Virus record (IMG/VR): IMGVR_UViG_3300045135_000832
Location: 1-20,781 of that record
Source: a virus
Reading direction: 5' to 3' (one strand)
Length of the DNA stretch: 20,781 nucleotides
Under the pieces are notes generated by a model. That model was given only the letters and a program-made list of their open reading frames with translations, searched no databases and was not told where the DNA came from. A program made the position numbers and the translations under genes. Positions 1,461 through 7,544 of this stretch are shown here, piece by piece. Positions within the stretch are counted from its first letter, which is position 1. Each line of letters opens with the position of its first letter.

Positions 1461-3667
1461 TTTTCACGACCTGTGCGGGGCTGATACGTCCCGCTATCCA
1501 GCGGCCCACTTACAACGCCAAGCCATTTCTTAGCGCCTTGTGGCGACTGTCTGTATGTATCTACGCGGCCCATGTTCTGAAGCTTTGTGACAAGCTGTTT
1601 GACTGTTGCCTCGCCAAGGTTTTGCAGCGCAATGATGCATGGCTCTGTTGGCTCAGATGTTCTGGCGCTCTCATAGATGCCATCTGTTGCTCCGCCCTTG
1701 GTGACAGCATTGCCTTGGATCTCGCGCATGCGGATGAATTCGAACACATGCTCTAGGCGTTCTCTCACGAGGTTTGAGCCTTGCAGGTTTGCAATCTCTT
1801 GGCTGCGATCTTCGAGCAGGCCAGTGTTTGGGTTGCGGATGAAGTTCCTGATTTCCCGGTTTGCTGGGCCGTTTGACTTTACGACTGCGCCATCGAACAC
1901 GGCATTGCGAGTGTAGGGGATTTGCAAATCTTTGCACCGTGCGCGCGCCACCCCTTCTTCGACCTGCCACACGGCGAATGCTGATCGGACGCCATCTACA
2001 ATGGCTGAGGTGCCGCGAATAAGGTTTCTCGCTTGCTCTGGCGTTGTGATGGGCTCGTTGTCTTTGATCTTGGCCATGTGGTGGTTGACCATGACTGTGG
2101 CGCCTGTTTCCGTTGCGATCTGCGCAAGTAGGCCCATGAACGCTGCCCCGGCTGCGGGGTCTGCGTTTACGTCAGCGTGAACGAATGAAGCCATTGGGTC
2201 CACGATGATAAGGGCTAGGTCATCTATCTCTAGGATTTGTTCGTATAGACGATCAAAATCAGGCGACACCATGTAGGTATTGTCGGCTTTCATCATGATT
2301 GGAAACACGCCGCCTTCGTTGGGCAGCGGTATCACGAACAATTCGTGGAGATAATCTTCGCGCTCCCGCATTGGATCTAGGCGCTCAATACGGCGATGCA
2401 GTTCGCCGCGATCATCTTCGGCTGACAGAATGATTGCGCTTCCGTGATGCGCCACAAGCCCTCCGAAAGAGTTCTGCATGCCCTTTCCTGACGCAACTTT
2501 CATGGCGAGATCTAAGGTCATCATGCCCTTGCCGCTGTCCCCGGCTGCAGCGAAAACCACTGGAACGCCAAGCGGAATGGTGTCACCGATTAGAAACTTC
2601 TGGACGGGTGCTGGCCCTGCAAACTGGTTCTTAGCCAGAAGGCTCCCATCCTTGAGTGAGATGGTTTTTTTGACTTTGTTATTGGGCGCGCTGAGGAACC
2701 GACCAATGTCGAAGCCCTCTTCTATGGCGTCGGCTGCGTCCCACTTCTTTGGCTTGCCTTGTGGGGGCGTAAGCATTGTGACGGACTTAGCCCCGGCATT
2801 GACCGCCAGTTCTTGGACAAGCTTTGCCAGCTTCATGCCTGCCTGATCGTTGTCAGGCCATATGACGAGTTCTTTACCGTGAAGCGGCGAAAAGTCGAAT
2901 TTGTGCTTTGTATTTGCCGAAAGCATTCCGGCCCCGCCAATGGTGCATGTGGCGGTATAGCCTAGTTTGGTCAGTGCATCCGCGCATTTTTCCCCTTCGA
3001 CCCAAATGATTCGGTCTGATCTAGCAATGTCTGGAAGATTGTAGAGGGGGCGTGATTCTGGCAGGCGCGGAAACTGGCGAAACTCTTTTTTCGCGTTCCC
3101 TTCTGCATCCAGAACAATTTCACCTGTTTCGTCCCTTTCGATGTAGCGACGGACTGCAACGAGAATTTCGCCATCCTCTGACAGATACAGATATTCTCCA
3201 TCATGAGGCGTATTTGCGTCAATGATTGTTTTGCGCCTCTGTTGCGCAGGTTCTGTTTGCTGTGTGTTTTCAGATGGTTGGCTGACTAAGTTAATGTTGA
3301 TTGGGTTCATCGGCGGAGCTGGTCTGTCGGCTCTCAGATAGGATTCGAAGTGCGCCGCCACTTGCTTGATGTTCCATCCATATGCCGCCATCAGGATTTT
3401 GGTAATGCCGCCGATGCCTTCATGCGTGTTGAAATCTTTTCCACGCATGAAGTTTTGGCTCATGGGATCGATGTCGATCTTGAGCGACTGCCCGGCTTCC
3501 CCTGACAGAGAGCCGATATAGAACTCATTACGAACAACTCTACCGTTTGGGTAGGCTCGTTTTAATTCATCGATCTGCACATGACGCGGCACTTTGTCCG
3601 TAATCTGAGCAACAACATCTTCGTTACCAACACTATATCTTGTGTTGTCATACACTCGGAATGTCAT
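1454..3667 (-). CDS. Toprim / RepA-like AAA primase-helicase
   Basis: This 737-aa protein combines a Toprim-type primase domain with a RecA-fold helicase domain. Toprim motifs are EGE at residues 224-226 and DND at 272-274 (in VIWPDNDQAG). Walker A is GDSGKGM at 376-382, which fits the RepA/AAA_25 group. Walker B is LIIVD at 486-490, followed by a VNHHM sensor-like segment at 527-531 and RGTSAIVDGVRSA at 551-563. I see no N-terminal zinc finger; the first 110 residues are uncharacterised and a Gln/Pro-rich linker follows at about 117-142. Such fused enzymes prime and unwind DNA at phage forks. The ATG at 3667 has a GGGA ribosome-binding site, with a perfect 12-bp hairpin just upstream. Confidence 0.85.
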   Translation of the reverse strand: MTFRVYDNTRYSVGNEDVVAQITDKVPRHVQIDELKRAYPNGRVVRNEFYIGSLSGEAGQSLKIDIDPMSQNFMRGKDFNTHEGIGGITKILMAAYGWNIKQVAAHFESYLRADRPAPPMNPININLVSQPSENTQQTEPAQQRRKTIIDANTPHDGEYLYLSEDGEILVAVRRYIERDETGEIVLDAEGNAKKEFRQFPRLPESRPLYNLPDIARSDRIIWVEGEKCADALTKLGYTATCTIGGAGMLSANTKHKFDFSPLHGKELVIWPDNDQAGMKLAKLVQELAVNAGAKSVTMLTPPQGKPKKWDAADAIEEGFDIGRFLSAPNNKVKKTISLKDGSLLAKNQFAGPAPVQKFLIGDTIPLGVPVVFAAAGDSGKGMMTLDLAMKVASGKGMQNSFGGLVAHHGSAIILSAEDDRGELHRRIERLDPMREREDYLHELFVIPLPNEGGVFPIMMKADNTYMVSPDFDRLYEQILEIDDLALIIVDPMASFVHADVNADPAAGAAFMGLLAQIATETGATVMVNHHMAKIKDNEPITTPEQARNLIRGTSAIVDGVRSAFAVWQVEEGVARARCKDLQIPYTRNAVFDGAVVKSNGPANREIRNFIRNPNTGLLEDRSQEIANLQGSNLVRERLEHVFEFIRMREIQGNAVTKGGATDGIYESARTSEPTEPCIIALQNLGEATVKQLVTKLQNMGRVDTYRQSPQGAKKWLGVVSGPLDSGTYQPRTGRENL

Positions 3668-3698
3668 TATATTGTCCCTATCTACCTTTTGGTGGTCC

Positions 3699-3739
3699 TA
3701 AAGGCTGGCGTATTGACCCTCCACCCGCGCCAGCCTTTA
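3699..3739 (-). promoter_or_regulatory. Perfect 12-bp intergenic stem-loop
   Basis: The arms at 3739-3728 and 3710-3699 (TAAAGGCTGGCG and its complement) pair perfectly around a 17-nt loop. The stem begins with the stop codon of the Cas4-like nuclease and ends about 30 bases before the primase-helicase ATG. No T-run follows on either strand, so it is not a typical intrinsic terminator. It is more likely an mRNA processing, stabilising or translation-control element between the two genes. The loop carries GGTGG, which could pair with a CCACC just downstream of the stem. Confidence 0.55.
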
Positions 3740-4525
3740 CTCCCCTTTCCAGCAAACGTCGCTGTATTCGCAGAACTTGCAAAGAAAGAAGTCTTTATTT
3801 TGCGCTATGCGGGGCAGGATGTCACCCGCCTTTGAGGCAGTCAATATGTTTACGGCCTTATCGCTAGACGCTTGGGCCAAAGCAGAGTTGAACGGCACCA
3901 ACTCGTAGTAAATCTCGCTGGTGTTTTTATTCACAACAGTAAACAGCGCGGGGTTTTCCGTTAACTCCATGTATGCCTGATACAGAGCGATCTGCGCTGC
4001 ATATGTTGGGTTTGCCTTTGCCACTCCATGCCGAACAAATTCCTTGAACTTCTTGTCGTTGGCGGACTTGTTTTCCCACAGGCATGGGTAGCCCATAGCT
4101 ACGGGGCCCTCACAGATCACCCCGTCTATGTGGCCTTTGATTTCATCATTGGCGATAGAGAATCCGAACTGCTTACCCATGCTGTCCTCGGTGCGCAGAT
4201 CAAACCCGGCGTCACGTAGCCACTTGGCGGCGTAATCTTCAATTGCGTGGCCGAACTCAAAGATGCGCAGCGTTTGCGCGCTGAACTCTGAGCCTTCATC
4301 TTGCGGGTAATTGAGATAGCGATACTGAATTTTGCGTGCGCATTCGTCACCGATGCTGGATGCGCCAAGATATTTGCGGCGCTCTCTCTTGCTGTTCTGC
4401 TCAACAATGGCTGCATCCACGGCCTCTGCAATCAGCTTTGTCGTTGGGTCTACTTCCTCAGAACGGGATGCTTGTAGGAGGCCAAGTGCCCGTTGACTGA
4501 TAGTATTTTTCTTCGAGTTTGGCAC
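3737..4525 (-). CDS. Cas4/AddB-like PD-(D/E)XK nuclease with Fe-S cysteines
   Basis: This 262-aa protein has the RecB-family nuclease order: His93 in EFGHAIEDYAAKWL, Asp134 in KGHIDGVI, Glu151 and Lys153 in LWENKS, and Gln178 in YAAQIALYQAY. One N-terminal cysteine (C62) and three C-terminal cysteines (C249, C252, C258, spaced CX2CX5C) match the 4Fe-4S layout of Cas4 and AddB. The likely role is exonuclease processing of DNA ends for phage recombination or replication; there is no CRISPR context here. The start is a GTG at 4525 served by GGAGG about nine bases upstream. It lies inside the preceding small gene, giving a 68-base overlap, and a CTAGAAAA element sits just before the ribosome-binding site. 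Confidence 0.8.
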   Translation of the reverse strand: MPNSKKNTISQRALGLLQASRSEEVDPTTKLIAEAVDAAIVEQNSKRERRKYLGASSIGDECARKIQYRYLNYPQDEGSEFSAQTLRIFEFGHAIEDYAAKWLRDAGFDLRTEDSMGKQFGFSIANDEIKGHIDGVICEGPVAMGYPCLWENKSANDKKFKEFVRHGVAKANPTYAAQIALYQAYMELTENPALFTVVNKNTSEIYYELVPFNSALAQASSDKAVNILTASKAGDILPRIAQNKDFFLCKFCEYSDVCWKGE

Positions 4526-5005: not shown

Positions 5006-5153
5006 CAATGTGTGACTCCTTCTTGCCGTATCGCAAGCTTACAGCCAAATCTGCCAAAAGGTGTGGTAAATCTTTTGGAGGGATGGTGGCAGTTTTTTCG
5101 CTGCCAACCCATACCTCAAGGCCGTGCTCTGTGATCTGCCACGCTGGCCTCAT
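4992..5153 (-). CDS. 53-aa protein coupled to the helicase gene
   Basis: This short frame starts with an ATG that overlaps the helicase stop as ATGA, the classic translational-coupling arrangement. A GGAG lies eight bases upstream inside the helicase gene. The product (MRPAWQITEHGLEVWVGSEK, then TATIPPKDLPHLLADLAVSLRYGKK) reads as two or three beta-strands followed by a helix, with normal composition. It fills what would otherwise be a 140-base hole in a tightly packed operon. Its end overlaps the next gene's start. No family name is known to me. Confidence 0.65.
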   Translation of the reverse strand: MRPAWQITEHGLEVWVGSEKTATIPPKDLPHLLADLAVSLRYGKKESHIDGTV

Positions 5154-6820
5154 AGGTAACGCTCCACGAAGTTATCGATGTTGCGCTTGTTCCACAGGTA
5201 GCCAAGCATGCAGGACGCTTTGTATTTGGTCCACGAGAAGTCCATGAAGTTGACGTGAACGCCCTGAGCGGCCAGCAGGCTGCGCTGCTTTTCACTCATC
5301 TTCTGGTCCAGCCACCGCTTGGTTTTCTTTGCGGAATTACCATCTTCGATCTCACGCAAGAAATCATCCGCCGCTGCTGTTGCCTGTGCCTTGCCGCCCA
5401 CCGACAGGATTTTGACACGACTGCCTGTTTCGTTTTTCTTACCGAACGCCACAGACACTTCGCCAGTGTTGGCAACGCCAACAAAGCCAGAGAAGCCCAG
5501 TGCCATCATGAGGGCGCCATTGCCGAACAAGTCGATCCAGCGGAACGGCGACATAGCCATCAAGTCGTATTCTGTGAGCGTAAACTCTTCCAGAACTTCC
5601 TTCTCTTGGCCACGGAATGCATGGCCACAGAACGGGCACTCACGAATGTTGACAGCCAGCTCAGAGCCACAGTCCGGGCATTCCTTTGTCGGGGAATCAA
5701 ATTCTTCTTCGCGCTTCGGCTTACCGTCTAGGTTCACGTCCTCATCGATTGAGCCGTGCGTCAGGACGCTTGTGCCAAAGTCCATAACGATGCAGTCGGT
5801 CTTTACGACGCCGGGGAACTCTTCTGGGTTTACGGTGCGCAGGCCACGGCCAATCATCTGCACCATGGTGCCCTTCTGCGAACATGGCCGTGTGAGCACC
5901 ACACAGGACACAGGAGGGGCATCAAAGCCTTCTGTAAGCACTGCCACGTTGACGACCACTTGCACGTCCCCATGGGCCAAATCATGCAGTATCTGGGCAC
6001 GCTCGTCTTTGGGGGTGTCTCCAGTCACGACCTCGGAATGAACGTCGTGCTCTAGGAACACTTCATTCAGCGCCATTGCGTGATTGATCGTGCTGCAGAA
6101 CACAACGGTCTTGCGATCCCCAGCCTTTTCCTTCCACTCTTTGACGACGCTCTGGTTGATCACTTGGCGGTTCATAATTGCTTCGACCTCTTCCATGTCG
6201 AAGTCGTTGCCACGCCGTGAAACGTTTTCCAGCTCACCGGAAACGCCCAAGTCGATCACATATGTCTTTGGCTTCACGAGGAAGCCTTCACGGATTAAAG
6301 TCGTGATTTCAATCTGGTGCGCGCAGTTGGTGAACACGTCGCGCAGACCCTTGCCATCGCCACGATTTGGTGTGGCTGTGAACCCCACGATCTCCGCGCT
6401 TGGGTTGTCGTTGCGGACTGCATTGATCACCTTGCGGTATGTATCAGCGGCTGCATGGTGGCTTTCGTCTACCACCACCATGTCAAATTTGGGGCGCCGC
6501 TCTAGATTCCTATCGCGCGAGATTGTCTGCACCATAGAGAATACGGCATTGCCATCCCAGTGCTTTACGGTGCCGTTTACGATGCTGGTTGTGATGTAGG
6601 GATTTACGCGCTCAAACTTGGCTTTGTTCTGCTCTACCAACTCGTCTCGGTGTTGGATTACCAAAACCTTTTTGCCATCCTTGTAGCGTTTGCCAATGAG
6701 GGCTGAGAGCATGATTGTTTTGCCAGCCCCTGTAGGGGCGACAACGATGGTGTTTCCGTGCTTATCAAGCGCCTTACAGGCATCAGCAACGGCCACCTCT
6801 TGGTAGGGGCGCAGTAGCAT
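5150..6820 (-). CDS. SF2 DEAD/DEAH-type helicase with zinc ribbon
   Basis: With the start at 6820 the protein has 556 residues. Superfamily 2 motifs are clear: Walker A APTGAGKT at 28-35, DESH at 118-121, TATP at 148-151, TEGFDAP at about 296-302, and motif VI QMIGRGLR at 321-328. A zinc ribbon follows with cysteines 381, 384, 395 and 398 (CPDCG...CPFCG). The group resembles RecG/UvsW/type III restriction-like DNA helicases that phages use to remodel forks or recombination intermediates. I chose the ATG at 6820 because GGAG lies six bases upstream; in-frame alternatives at 6832 (ATG) and 6865 (GTG) lack a convincing site. The 94-base gap upstream carries unusual RNA structure. Confidence 0.85.
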   Translation of the reverse strand: MLLRPYQEVAVADACKALDKHGNTIVVAPTGAGKTIMLSALIGKRYKDGKKVLVIQHRDELVEQNKAKFERVNPYITTSIVNGTVKHWDGNAVFSMVQTISRDRNLERRPKFDMVVVDESHHAAADTYRKVINAVRNDNPSAEIVGFTATPNRGDGKGLRDVFTNCAHQIEITTLIREGFLVKPKTYVIDLGVSGELENVSRRGNDFDMEEVEAIMNRQVINQSVVKEWKEKAGDRKTVVFCSTINHAMALNEVFLEHDVHSEVVTGDTPKDERAQILHDLAHGDVQVVVNVAVLTEGFDAPPVSCVVLTRPCSQKGTMVQMIGRGLRTVNPEEFPGVVKTDCIVMDFGTSVLTHGSIDEDVNLDGKPKREEEFDSPTKECPDCGSELAVNIRECPFCGHAFRGQEKEVLEEFTLTEYDLMAMSPFRWIDLFGNGALMMALGFSGFVGVANTGEVSVAFGKKNETGSRVKILSVGGKAQATAAADDFLREIEDGNSAKKTKRWLDQKMSEKQRSLLAAQGVHVNFMDFSWTKYKASCMLGYLWNKRNIDNFVERYL

Positions 6821-6846
6821 GTGGGGCTCCATTTTTCTAGAAAGTC

Positions 6847-6881
6847 TGGGGGGTTTTGGGCCCACTGCCCCCCATCAGTGG
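6847..6881 (-). promoter_or_regulatory. Putative H-type RNA pseudoknot before the helicase start
   Basis: On the minus strand stem 1 is CCACTG at 6881-6876 paired with CAGTGG at 6867-6862. The loop it closes holds TGGGGGG at 6874-6868, which is exactly complementary to CCCCCCA at 6853-6847. The connecting loops are one nucleotide (6875), zero, and eight nucleotides (6861-6854, GCCCAAAA). These lengths match what a 7-bp and a 6-bp coaxial stem need in an H-type pseudoknot. It ends 26 bases before the helicase ATG and 16 before its ribosome-binding site, so translational control is the natural guess. A simple G-rich 7-bp hairpin with a 14-nt loop is the competing fold. Confidence 0.55.
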
Positions 6882-6886
6882 TCTAG

Positions 6887-6904
6887 CAGGTTTGGAGTAA
6901 CCTG
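6887..6904 (-). promoter_or_regulatory. 6-bp hairpin with a loop complementary to the helicase RBS
   Basis: CAGGTT at 6904-6899 and AACCTG at 6892-6887 pair perfectly around the loop ACTCCA on the minus strand. It sits ten bases after the stop of the ssDNA-binding protein gene and five bases before the pseudoknot. The loop bases CTCCA are complementary to TGGAG at 6831-6827, which contains the helicase ribosome-binding site, so a loop-to-RBS contact is possible. There is no T-run, so it is not an intrinsic terminator. Confidence 0.4.
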
Positions 6905-6914
6905 TGCCGCTAGA

Positions 6915-7544
6915 TTAGCGATTAGCCCAACTTGGAACTGCGCCGCCCATTGCGGGTTGCTGCTGGCCCATCTGCTGCTGTTGCGGCTGATACTGTGCCG
7001 CTGCAGGTGTGGCCATAACTGGCGCTTGCCCAGTTGGGATAAAATCCTTCTGGTTGGCGGTAATAGCTGCCATCAGACGGTTAGTGTCTTGGTAGCCATT
7101 GGTGCCTTTCTTGATACCAACTTTCGCACAAATCTCCATGCCGTTCAAGTCGGCCACGCCACTGATCTGGCGACGTTGCTGGGCTTGAGGTGACATATCT
7201 GCCGGGTCCAAACCATTGGCGCTTTCAATGATTGCGCGCAGGGTTTGTAGACCAATCTCTTTGGCCTGTGGAATGCCGCTCTGACCCATCTTATCGCCAT
7301 CGACAAAAATGCGATCCCAAAACTTGCGACGGTCATGTTCGCCACCAACAATGGTGAATTCCAATTCCATCCACTTGGCGCTCGACGACTGCGACCGCTT
7401 AAACCACGGGCCCATGCCAAACTCAGGAATTTCCATATCCCCAGCTTTCAGTGCGATGATAGCGCGACATACGGTGCCATTAGGAATCAGGGTGCGCTCC
7501 ATTTGAGGCGCTTCGGATACTGGTGCTTGGTTTAGGTTCAGCAT
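6915..7544 (-). CDS. ssDNA-binding protein candidate (DUF669-like)
   Basis: This 209-aa protein has an N-terminal beta-rich domain (residues about 1-165), including CRAIIALKAGD, ELEFTIVGGEHDRRKFWDRIF and a later ICAKVGIKKGTNGYQDTNRL. The order resembles the DUF669-type single-strand-binding proteins that lie beside phage annealing recombinases. The tail from about 170 is low-complexity, rich in Gln, Pro, Ala and Met, and ends in SWANR rather than the acidic tip of bacterial SSB. The ATG has an excellent AAGGAGA site located in the last codons of the Sak4-like gene, three bases away. The likely role is coating ssDNA and cooperating with the Sak4-like ATPase; this is inferred from fold pattern and context. 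Confidence 0.6.
   Translation of the reverse strand: MLNLNQAPVSEAPQMERTLIPNGTVCRAIIALKAGDMEIPEFGMGPWFKRSQSSSAKWMELEFTIVGGEHDRRKFWDRIFVDGDKMGQSGIPQAKEIGLQTLRAIIESANGLDPADMSPQAQQRRQISGVADLNGMEICAKVGIKKGTNGYQDTNRLMAAITANQKDFIPTGQAPVMATPAAAQYQPQQQQMGQQQPAMGGAVPSWANR

Follow-up and report, generated by a model that had tools for sequence, protein, structure and literature searches.

A structured RNA family with a covarying pseudoknot core at the 3′ edge of a single-stranded DNA-binding protein gene in uncultured phages

Between the genes for a putative single-stranded DNA-binding protein (SSB) and a DNA helicase in IMG/VR virus record IMGVR_UViG_3300045135_000832 lies a short gap in which an earlier note had recognized an H-type pseudoknot at 6847–6881; the note proposed that the SSB, or a ligand, may control helicase translation through it. 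The locus raises the question of whether this RNA is real and, if so, which gene it serves. Coordinates are those of the window, the whole stretch of 20,781 nt that was analyzed. Read in RNA sense, the minus strand from 6881 to 6847 is CCACUG-A-UGGGGGG-CAGUGG-GCCCAAAA-CCCCCCA, and the stems and loops are exactly as had been claimed. Stem S1 pairs CCACUG (6876–6881) with CAGUGG (6862–6867) over six perfect base pairs, stem S2 pairs UGGGGGG in the S1 loop (6868–6874) with CCCCCCA (6847–6853) over seven, and the connecting loops measure 1 nt (L1; A6875, between the 5′ strands of S1 and S2), 0 nt (L2), and 8 nt (loop 3; 6854–6861). When both strands of the window were shuffled in 100-nt blocks, pseudoknots with at least six perfect pairs in S1 and at least seven in S2 were expected 0.025 times per window; the window holds two, the one at 6881–6847 and another of equal stem lengths at 6026 on the plus strand, opposite the helicase coding sequence, which is probably there by chance. 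Folding energy reveals no excess stability at the site (z −0.58 and −0.21) because the folding program cannot form pseudoknots, and plain folding programs favor the S2 hairpin (−14.5 to −15 kcal/mol). The duplex energies of S1 (−7.7 kcal/mol) and S2 (−14.0 kcal/mol) add up to −21.7 kcal/mol when no loop penalty for the pseudoknot is charged, which makes the pseudoknot plausible, though not proven by energy. Its reality is settled by the comparative evidence from related phage sequences.

The gene immediately upstream of the element (6915–7544, minus strand) gives a profile match to phrog_2300, and two homologues of its product match phrog_6015, ‘single strand DNA binding protein’. The AlphaFold model of the product (pLDDT 82) has as its best PDB match the OB-fold ssDNA-binding protein PrgE (8s4s, Z 9.3; 8s4t, DNA-bound, Z 8.2), which binds ssDNA as well as dsDNA (PMC11137577). 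Judged from the predicted fold, the product is very likely an SSB, in agreement with the earlier reading of this neighbor.

Relatives were sought by DNA pattern and with SSB proteins, namely that of the window and three diverged homologues, giving more than 300 IMG/VR loci and two MAG loci (L001, L002, and so on). The same contig is often represented by more than one locus, and counts are given over the 187 distinct SSB loci whose downstream sequence extends for 100 nt or more. Within ~110 nt of the SSB stop codon, 174 of the 187 carry the pseudoknot, compared with 1.5% in shuffled regions. The DNA pattern scan was made without the SSB, and its matches nevertheless adjoin SSB genes; at L120 and L126 the contig end is reached with the SSB tail still seen. 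At L292, L296, and L304 the element stands behind inserted DNA, which is a gene in L292 and L304. One group of SSB relatives is devoid of the element (the eight loci L283, L285, L287–L290, L295, and L298), as are the nearest GenBank relatives of the SSB, from Acidithiobacillus phage AcaML1 and Wolbachia phage WO. Where long contigs were tested, each record holds one convincing copy, always at the SSB locus; a covariance model search of the window found no further copies above noise, and a second match in the Maricaulis MAG is weak (22.4 bits, E 0.06) and was taken as chance. The carriers, uncultured viruses of bacteria that are mostly marine, form a large group, and blastn with the 4-kb region as query found no match among GenBank phages. 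The two MAG loci are binned in a Rhodobacteraceae MAG (L264, WTIQ01000492.1) and in the Maricaulis MAG (L265, NZMJ01000063.1), hinting at alphaproteobacterial hosts if the binning, which may be wrong, is accepted; a search of 390 further genomes from the order of the Rhodobacteraceae MAG did not find the element.

Alignment of these loci supports the coordinates 6847–6881 for the pseudoknot itself but makes them too narrow for the conserved element, which starts at 6914: by this comparison, the pseudoknot forms the center of a new structured RNA of greater length on the minus strand (6914–6847, mRNA sense). The fold spans ~68 nt and places a bulged hairpin directly 3′ of the SSB stop codon, followed by the S1/S2 pseudoknot. 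In the hairpin, strand A (UCUAGC, 6909–6914) adjoins the stop codon and has strand B (GCUAGA, 6882–6887) as its pairing partner, as is also seen in the alignment, where relatives have CUAACG/CGUUAG or UUGGCG/CGUCAA. Between the two lie a bulge, GGCA (6905–6908), and a hairpin, H, taken from the computed fold (6887–6904; CAGGUU at 6904–6899, loop ACUCCA, and AACCUG at 6892–6887); G6887 is able to pair in A:B or in H. A further helix, T1, which was absent from the earlier description, pairs the GGC of the bulge (6908–6906), leaving A6905 unpaired, with the GCC at the start of loop 3 (6861–6859). T1 has only 3 bp in the window, and its assignment rests on T1-only controls and on its variants in relatives (GCGGC/GCCGC, GCCUC/GAGGC, GCGUC/GACGC, ACGGCA/UGCCGU, AGGGCA/UGCCCU, and CGC/GCG). 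If T1 and S2 coexist, few loop 3 bases would remain to span S1. A covariance model matches 6847–6914 with 81.9 bits, the window being among the sequences used to build that model.

We aligned 37 non-redundant elements (alignment A1) over the five helices S1, S2, T1, A:B, and H. Across these copies 89.9% of pair cells hold, compared with 75.0 ± 0.8% after shuffling and 40–52% with partners slid. Paired cells make up 92.8% of S1 (58% shuffled), 98.2% of S2 (80%), 87.2% of T1 (81%), and 95% of A:B (92%), and for each of these four helices the covariation score lies above all 500 shuffles; H is the least conserved, with 65% of cells paired. Double changes are found in 6/6 pairs of S1, 6/6 pairs of S2, and 3/5 pairs of A:B, and on the SSB tree they amount to 33 independent events in S1, 15 in S2, three in T1, and five in A:B plus H. 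The covariation check in related phages suggested by the earlier note therefore finds a pseudoknot maintained by compensatory changes across 37 diverse copies. Such changes strongly indicate a fold under selection, kept by structure rather than sequence, and on this comparative evidence the conserved RNA structure is almost certainly real.

Scored without bias in the treatment of wobbles, the non-Watson–Crick pairs of S1 comprise seven G-U and one A-C, so the coding, mRNA-sense strand is the constrained, folding strand. The same count bears on whether the element might instead work as a single-stranded DNA structure during replication or recombination of the phage, perhaps as a site for loading or priming; an ssDNA role was at one time suggested for the STAXI motif. 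The neighborhood does contain genes for SSB, helicase, Sak4, and primase, and the position is kept inside or outside coding regions, with other genes inserted on either side; however, the 7:1 preference for G-U over A-C fits RNA better, the element always lies in the mRNA sense of the operon, and some SSB relatives are without it, and we consider this role improbable.

Among positions at least 90% conserved in the 37-copy alignment, every one is paired except A6905. A single unpaired base of this kind argues against a ligand aptamer or ribozyme, and likewise against the small-molecule ligand once offered as a possible controller. Rfam has models for the SAM-II, preQ1, and pistol RNAs, in which numerous unpaired bases are conserved; the present element shares their pseudoknot strand order but matches none of those models and has no conserved unpaired core. 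An undescribed class of self-cleaving ribozyme or metabolite riboswitch would be in keeping with the compact multi-pseudoknot fold and with a core order, S1a-S2a-S1b-S2b, like that of the pistol and SAM-II RNAs, but it faces the same scarcity of conserved unpaired positions, the lack of an Rfam match, and downstream genes that share no metabolic theme, and is very improbable.

In the window the gene downstream of the element encodes a DNA helicase (5150–6820, minus strand; ResIII/Helicase_C domain matches). The longest helicase open reading frame begins at GTG 6865, inside the pseudoknot; the true start is probably ATG 6820 (6820–6818), behind the RBS GGAG (6830–6827), and homologues begin MLLRPYQ or MILRPYQ. 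The helicase start lies no more than 130 nt from the SSB stop codon in 126 loci, and in 35 of the 174 loci another gene stands between element and helicase. By names that rest on reading the sequence, the intervening gene most often encodes a nuclease-like ‘MRPTYET’ protein and otherwise SleB-like hydrolase-type, small cysteine-rich, or other proteins. The nuclease-like gene (~138 aa, MRPTYET...KMPKQYHLDYC...FCEVKVR) occupies one site between element and helicase in L001, L009, L027, L087, L096, L136, L146, and L147, for which intergenic homing is a possible explanation. In L286, L305, and L326 a small HTH-like gene overlaps the SSB stop codon, and its reading frame contains the entire element (L286:3632–3910; L305:3615–3930; L326 around 3620–3940); there the pseudoknot stretch appears to be selected both as RNA and as protein; a similar HTH-like gene, without the element, occurs in L283-type phages. 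Because the next gene varies and the element can lie inside frames, the element tracks the SSB locus, not the helicase, and an untranslated leader is not required. The earlier proposal of specific control of helicase translation is not supported, in view of the intervening genes, the inserted DNA in L292, L296, and L304, and the in-frame elements.

Translational control of whichever gene follows, by pairing of the H loop with its SD or by ribosomes that finish the SSB and open the fold (translational coupling), is a separate matter. Pairing of the H loop with the SD region that follows it is better than with permuted SD regions (P 0.0004 over 56 pairs and 0.003 over distinct loops, P values that ignore phylogeny), whereas against the SSB's own RBS, for which an anti-SD role was considered and rejected, the loop shows nothing (P 0.58). 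In the window the CUCCA of the H loop faces UGGAG, and a start codon lies ~10–32 nt past the element in nearly all relatives. Yet a large clade with an AGGUG SD has no loop–SD match, the UCUAG motif beside the SD (motif C, described below) also precedes unrelated genes, and in L286, L305, and L326 the element is inside the frame and therefore cannot gate that gene's initiation; such control is, in our judgment, unlikely. A programmed −1 frameshift stimulator was rejected, there being no slippery heptamer at the right distance (5–9 nt before the pseudoknot) and no fused frame: S1 starts 33 nt after the SSB stop codon with the hairpin intervening, the helicase frame has a stop at 6877–6875, and GTTAAAC in L305, being out of frame and too distant on the upstream side, could not serve as a slippery site. 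A scan for Rho-independent terminators found none at the element.

As far as covariation can establish it, a large phage lineage has a selected RNA-sense fold at the 3′ edge of its SSB cistron, from which we infer cis-acting post-transcriptional control centered on the SSB message. The element would most likely be either a 3′ boundary of that message or an operator bound by the SSB, two mechanisms that the evidence fails to separate. As a folded 3′ boundary it would act in cis on the polycistronic replication mRNA: the compact pseudoknot would stop or slow 3′-to-5′ exonucleases, possibly also RNA polymerase or ribosomes, and the SSB segment would be longer-lived or more translated than the following genes, since SSB is needed in large amounts. 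We tentatively put this mechanism (mRNA stability or differential expression) first, slightly above the operator, because different genes can follow the element and the element itself can be part of a coding sequence. It is favored by the placement of the pseudoknot directly after the SSB stop codon in 174/187 loci, and at the SSB 3′ edge even inside a frame, by the covariation in S1, S2, T1, and A:B, by the single copy at the SSB locus of each long contig tested, and by folding of the coding strand; the near absence of conserved unpaired bases is what a shape-based rather than ligand-binding role would lead one to expect. In the lambda sib retroregulator and in bacterial intercistronic stabilizer hairpins, structured RNA downstream of a gene likewise sets the fate of the upstream message, but these are hairpins without a covarying pseudoknot, and we only infer a comparable effect here. 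Against a 3′ boundary, a plain hairpin would suffice as a barrier, and the elaborate fold with T1 may point to specific protein recognition; other DNA lies between SSB and element in L292, L296, and L304, and SSB relatives without the element exist; and the weak match between H loop and next SD would suggest control of the downstream gene instead.

Were the element an SSB-responsive operator like that of T4 gene 32, free SSB would recognize it, spread on adjacent mRNA, and repress translation of the following gene or genes or alter the fate of its own message. The T4 pseudoknot is the nucleation site for gp32, overlaps a neighboring reading frame, and has an endonuclease gene alongside (PMC535899, PMC3014915), and M13 gp5 is a second SSB that acts as a repressor (PMC535899). 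These precedents, the strict linkage of the element to the SSB gene, and the OB fold in the structure model of the linked protein make such an operator possible; the element nonetheless stands behind the SSB gene and not in front, the gene after it is not constant, and no UUAAA-type spreading site was noticed. More speculative, and doubtful on balance, is a new class of phage cis-regulatory RNA with a fold of its own, in which loop 3 of the pseudoknot is fastened to the hairpin bulge. Such an RNA would sense free SSB, coupling gene expression to how much ssDNA the infected cell contains, T4-type control having evolved in an unrelated lineage and behind the SSB gene.

By analogy, the element would be likest in its working to the T4 gene 32 pseudoknot, yet it is not a member of the T4-type operators, because it lies behind the SSB gene, has no UUAAA tract, and carries extra helices. 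The gene 32 operators of T4, T2, and RB69 are, like it, RNA pseudoknots (~28 nt) beside a phage SSB gene that may overlap a neighboring frame and adjoin an endonuclease gene (PMC535899, PMC3014915), and both are H-type with stacked stems and a short loop 1 (here L1 is 1 nt and L2 0 nt). In contrast, the T4 pseudoknot is in the leader of the SSB gene, whereas the present element starts right after the SSB stop codon; the T4 operator is followed by UUAAA repeats, of which 6846–6831 holds none; and the bulged hairpin and the bulge–loop helix T1 are additional here. The likeness implies no kinship between the window SSB and gp32. According to a 2010 review, translational autoregulation by a viral RNA pseudoknot may be confined to T4-type gene 32 (PMC3014915). 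Another pseudoknot reported near ssDNA-binding protein genes is the STAXI motif (Rfam RF01728), for which an RNA or ssDNA role was proposed (PMC2864571). In STAXI, pseudoknots stand in tandem, two or three together, and frequently carry UUCG loops, whereas the present element has one pseudoknot, preceded by a hairpin, and occurs once per record; the RF01728 model had no match in the window or in records G003–G005, and in G006 it gave a 10.6-bit partial match elsewhere (gathering cut-off 40.5). In searches of Rfam 15, neither the window region (E ≤ 5) nor six relatives (E ≤ 1) matched any family, a chance mir-16 match aside, and no description of the element was found in the open literature. 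On sequence comparison, it represents a family of structured RNAs in uncultured phages that is new, well supported, and missing from Rfam. It adds a second pseudoknot to the one already linked with a phage SSB, with an architecture that differs from the T4 type, strong covariation, and recurrence in metagenomic phages. Its covarying natural variants are ready-made compensatory mutants, and structure and function are therefore directly testable in a laboratory strain.

Just before the SD, outside the element, the window carries UCUAG (motif C; 6837–6841, minus strand), and CTAG occurs there in 123 of the 174 loci, L128, L193, and L265 being examples of its absence. A switch in which strand B (GCUAGA) pairs with this UCUAG was considered and rejected, as the CTAG–SD arrangement recurs before other window genes. 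UCUAG(A/C) lies just upstream of the SD of several minus-strand genes in the window (8831, 7563, 6840, and 1417), for example as CTAGAAAAGAGGAG, CTAGCGAAGGAG, and CTAGAAAAGGGG, and the arrangement also precedes the SSB in many relatives. Since it is found before other window genes (8831, 7563, and 1417), motif C is probably a recurring RBS module and not part of the pseudoknot fold.
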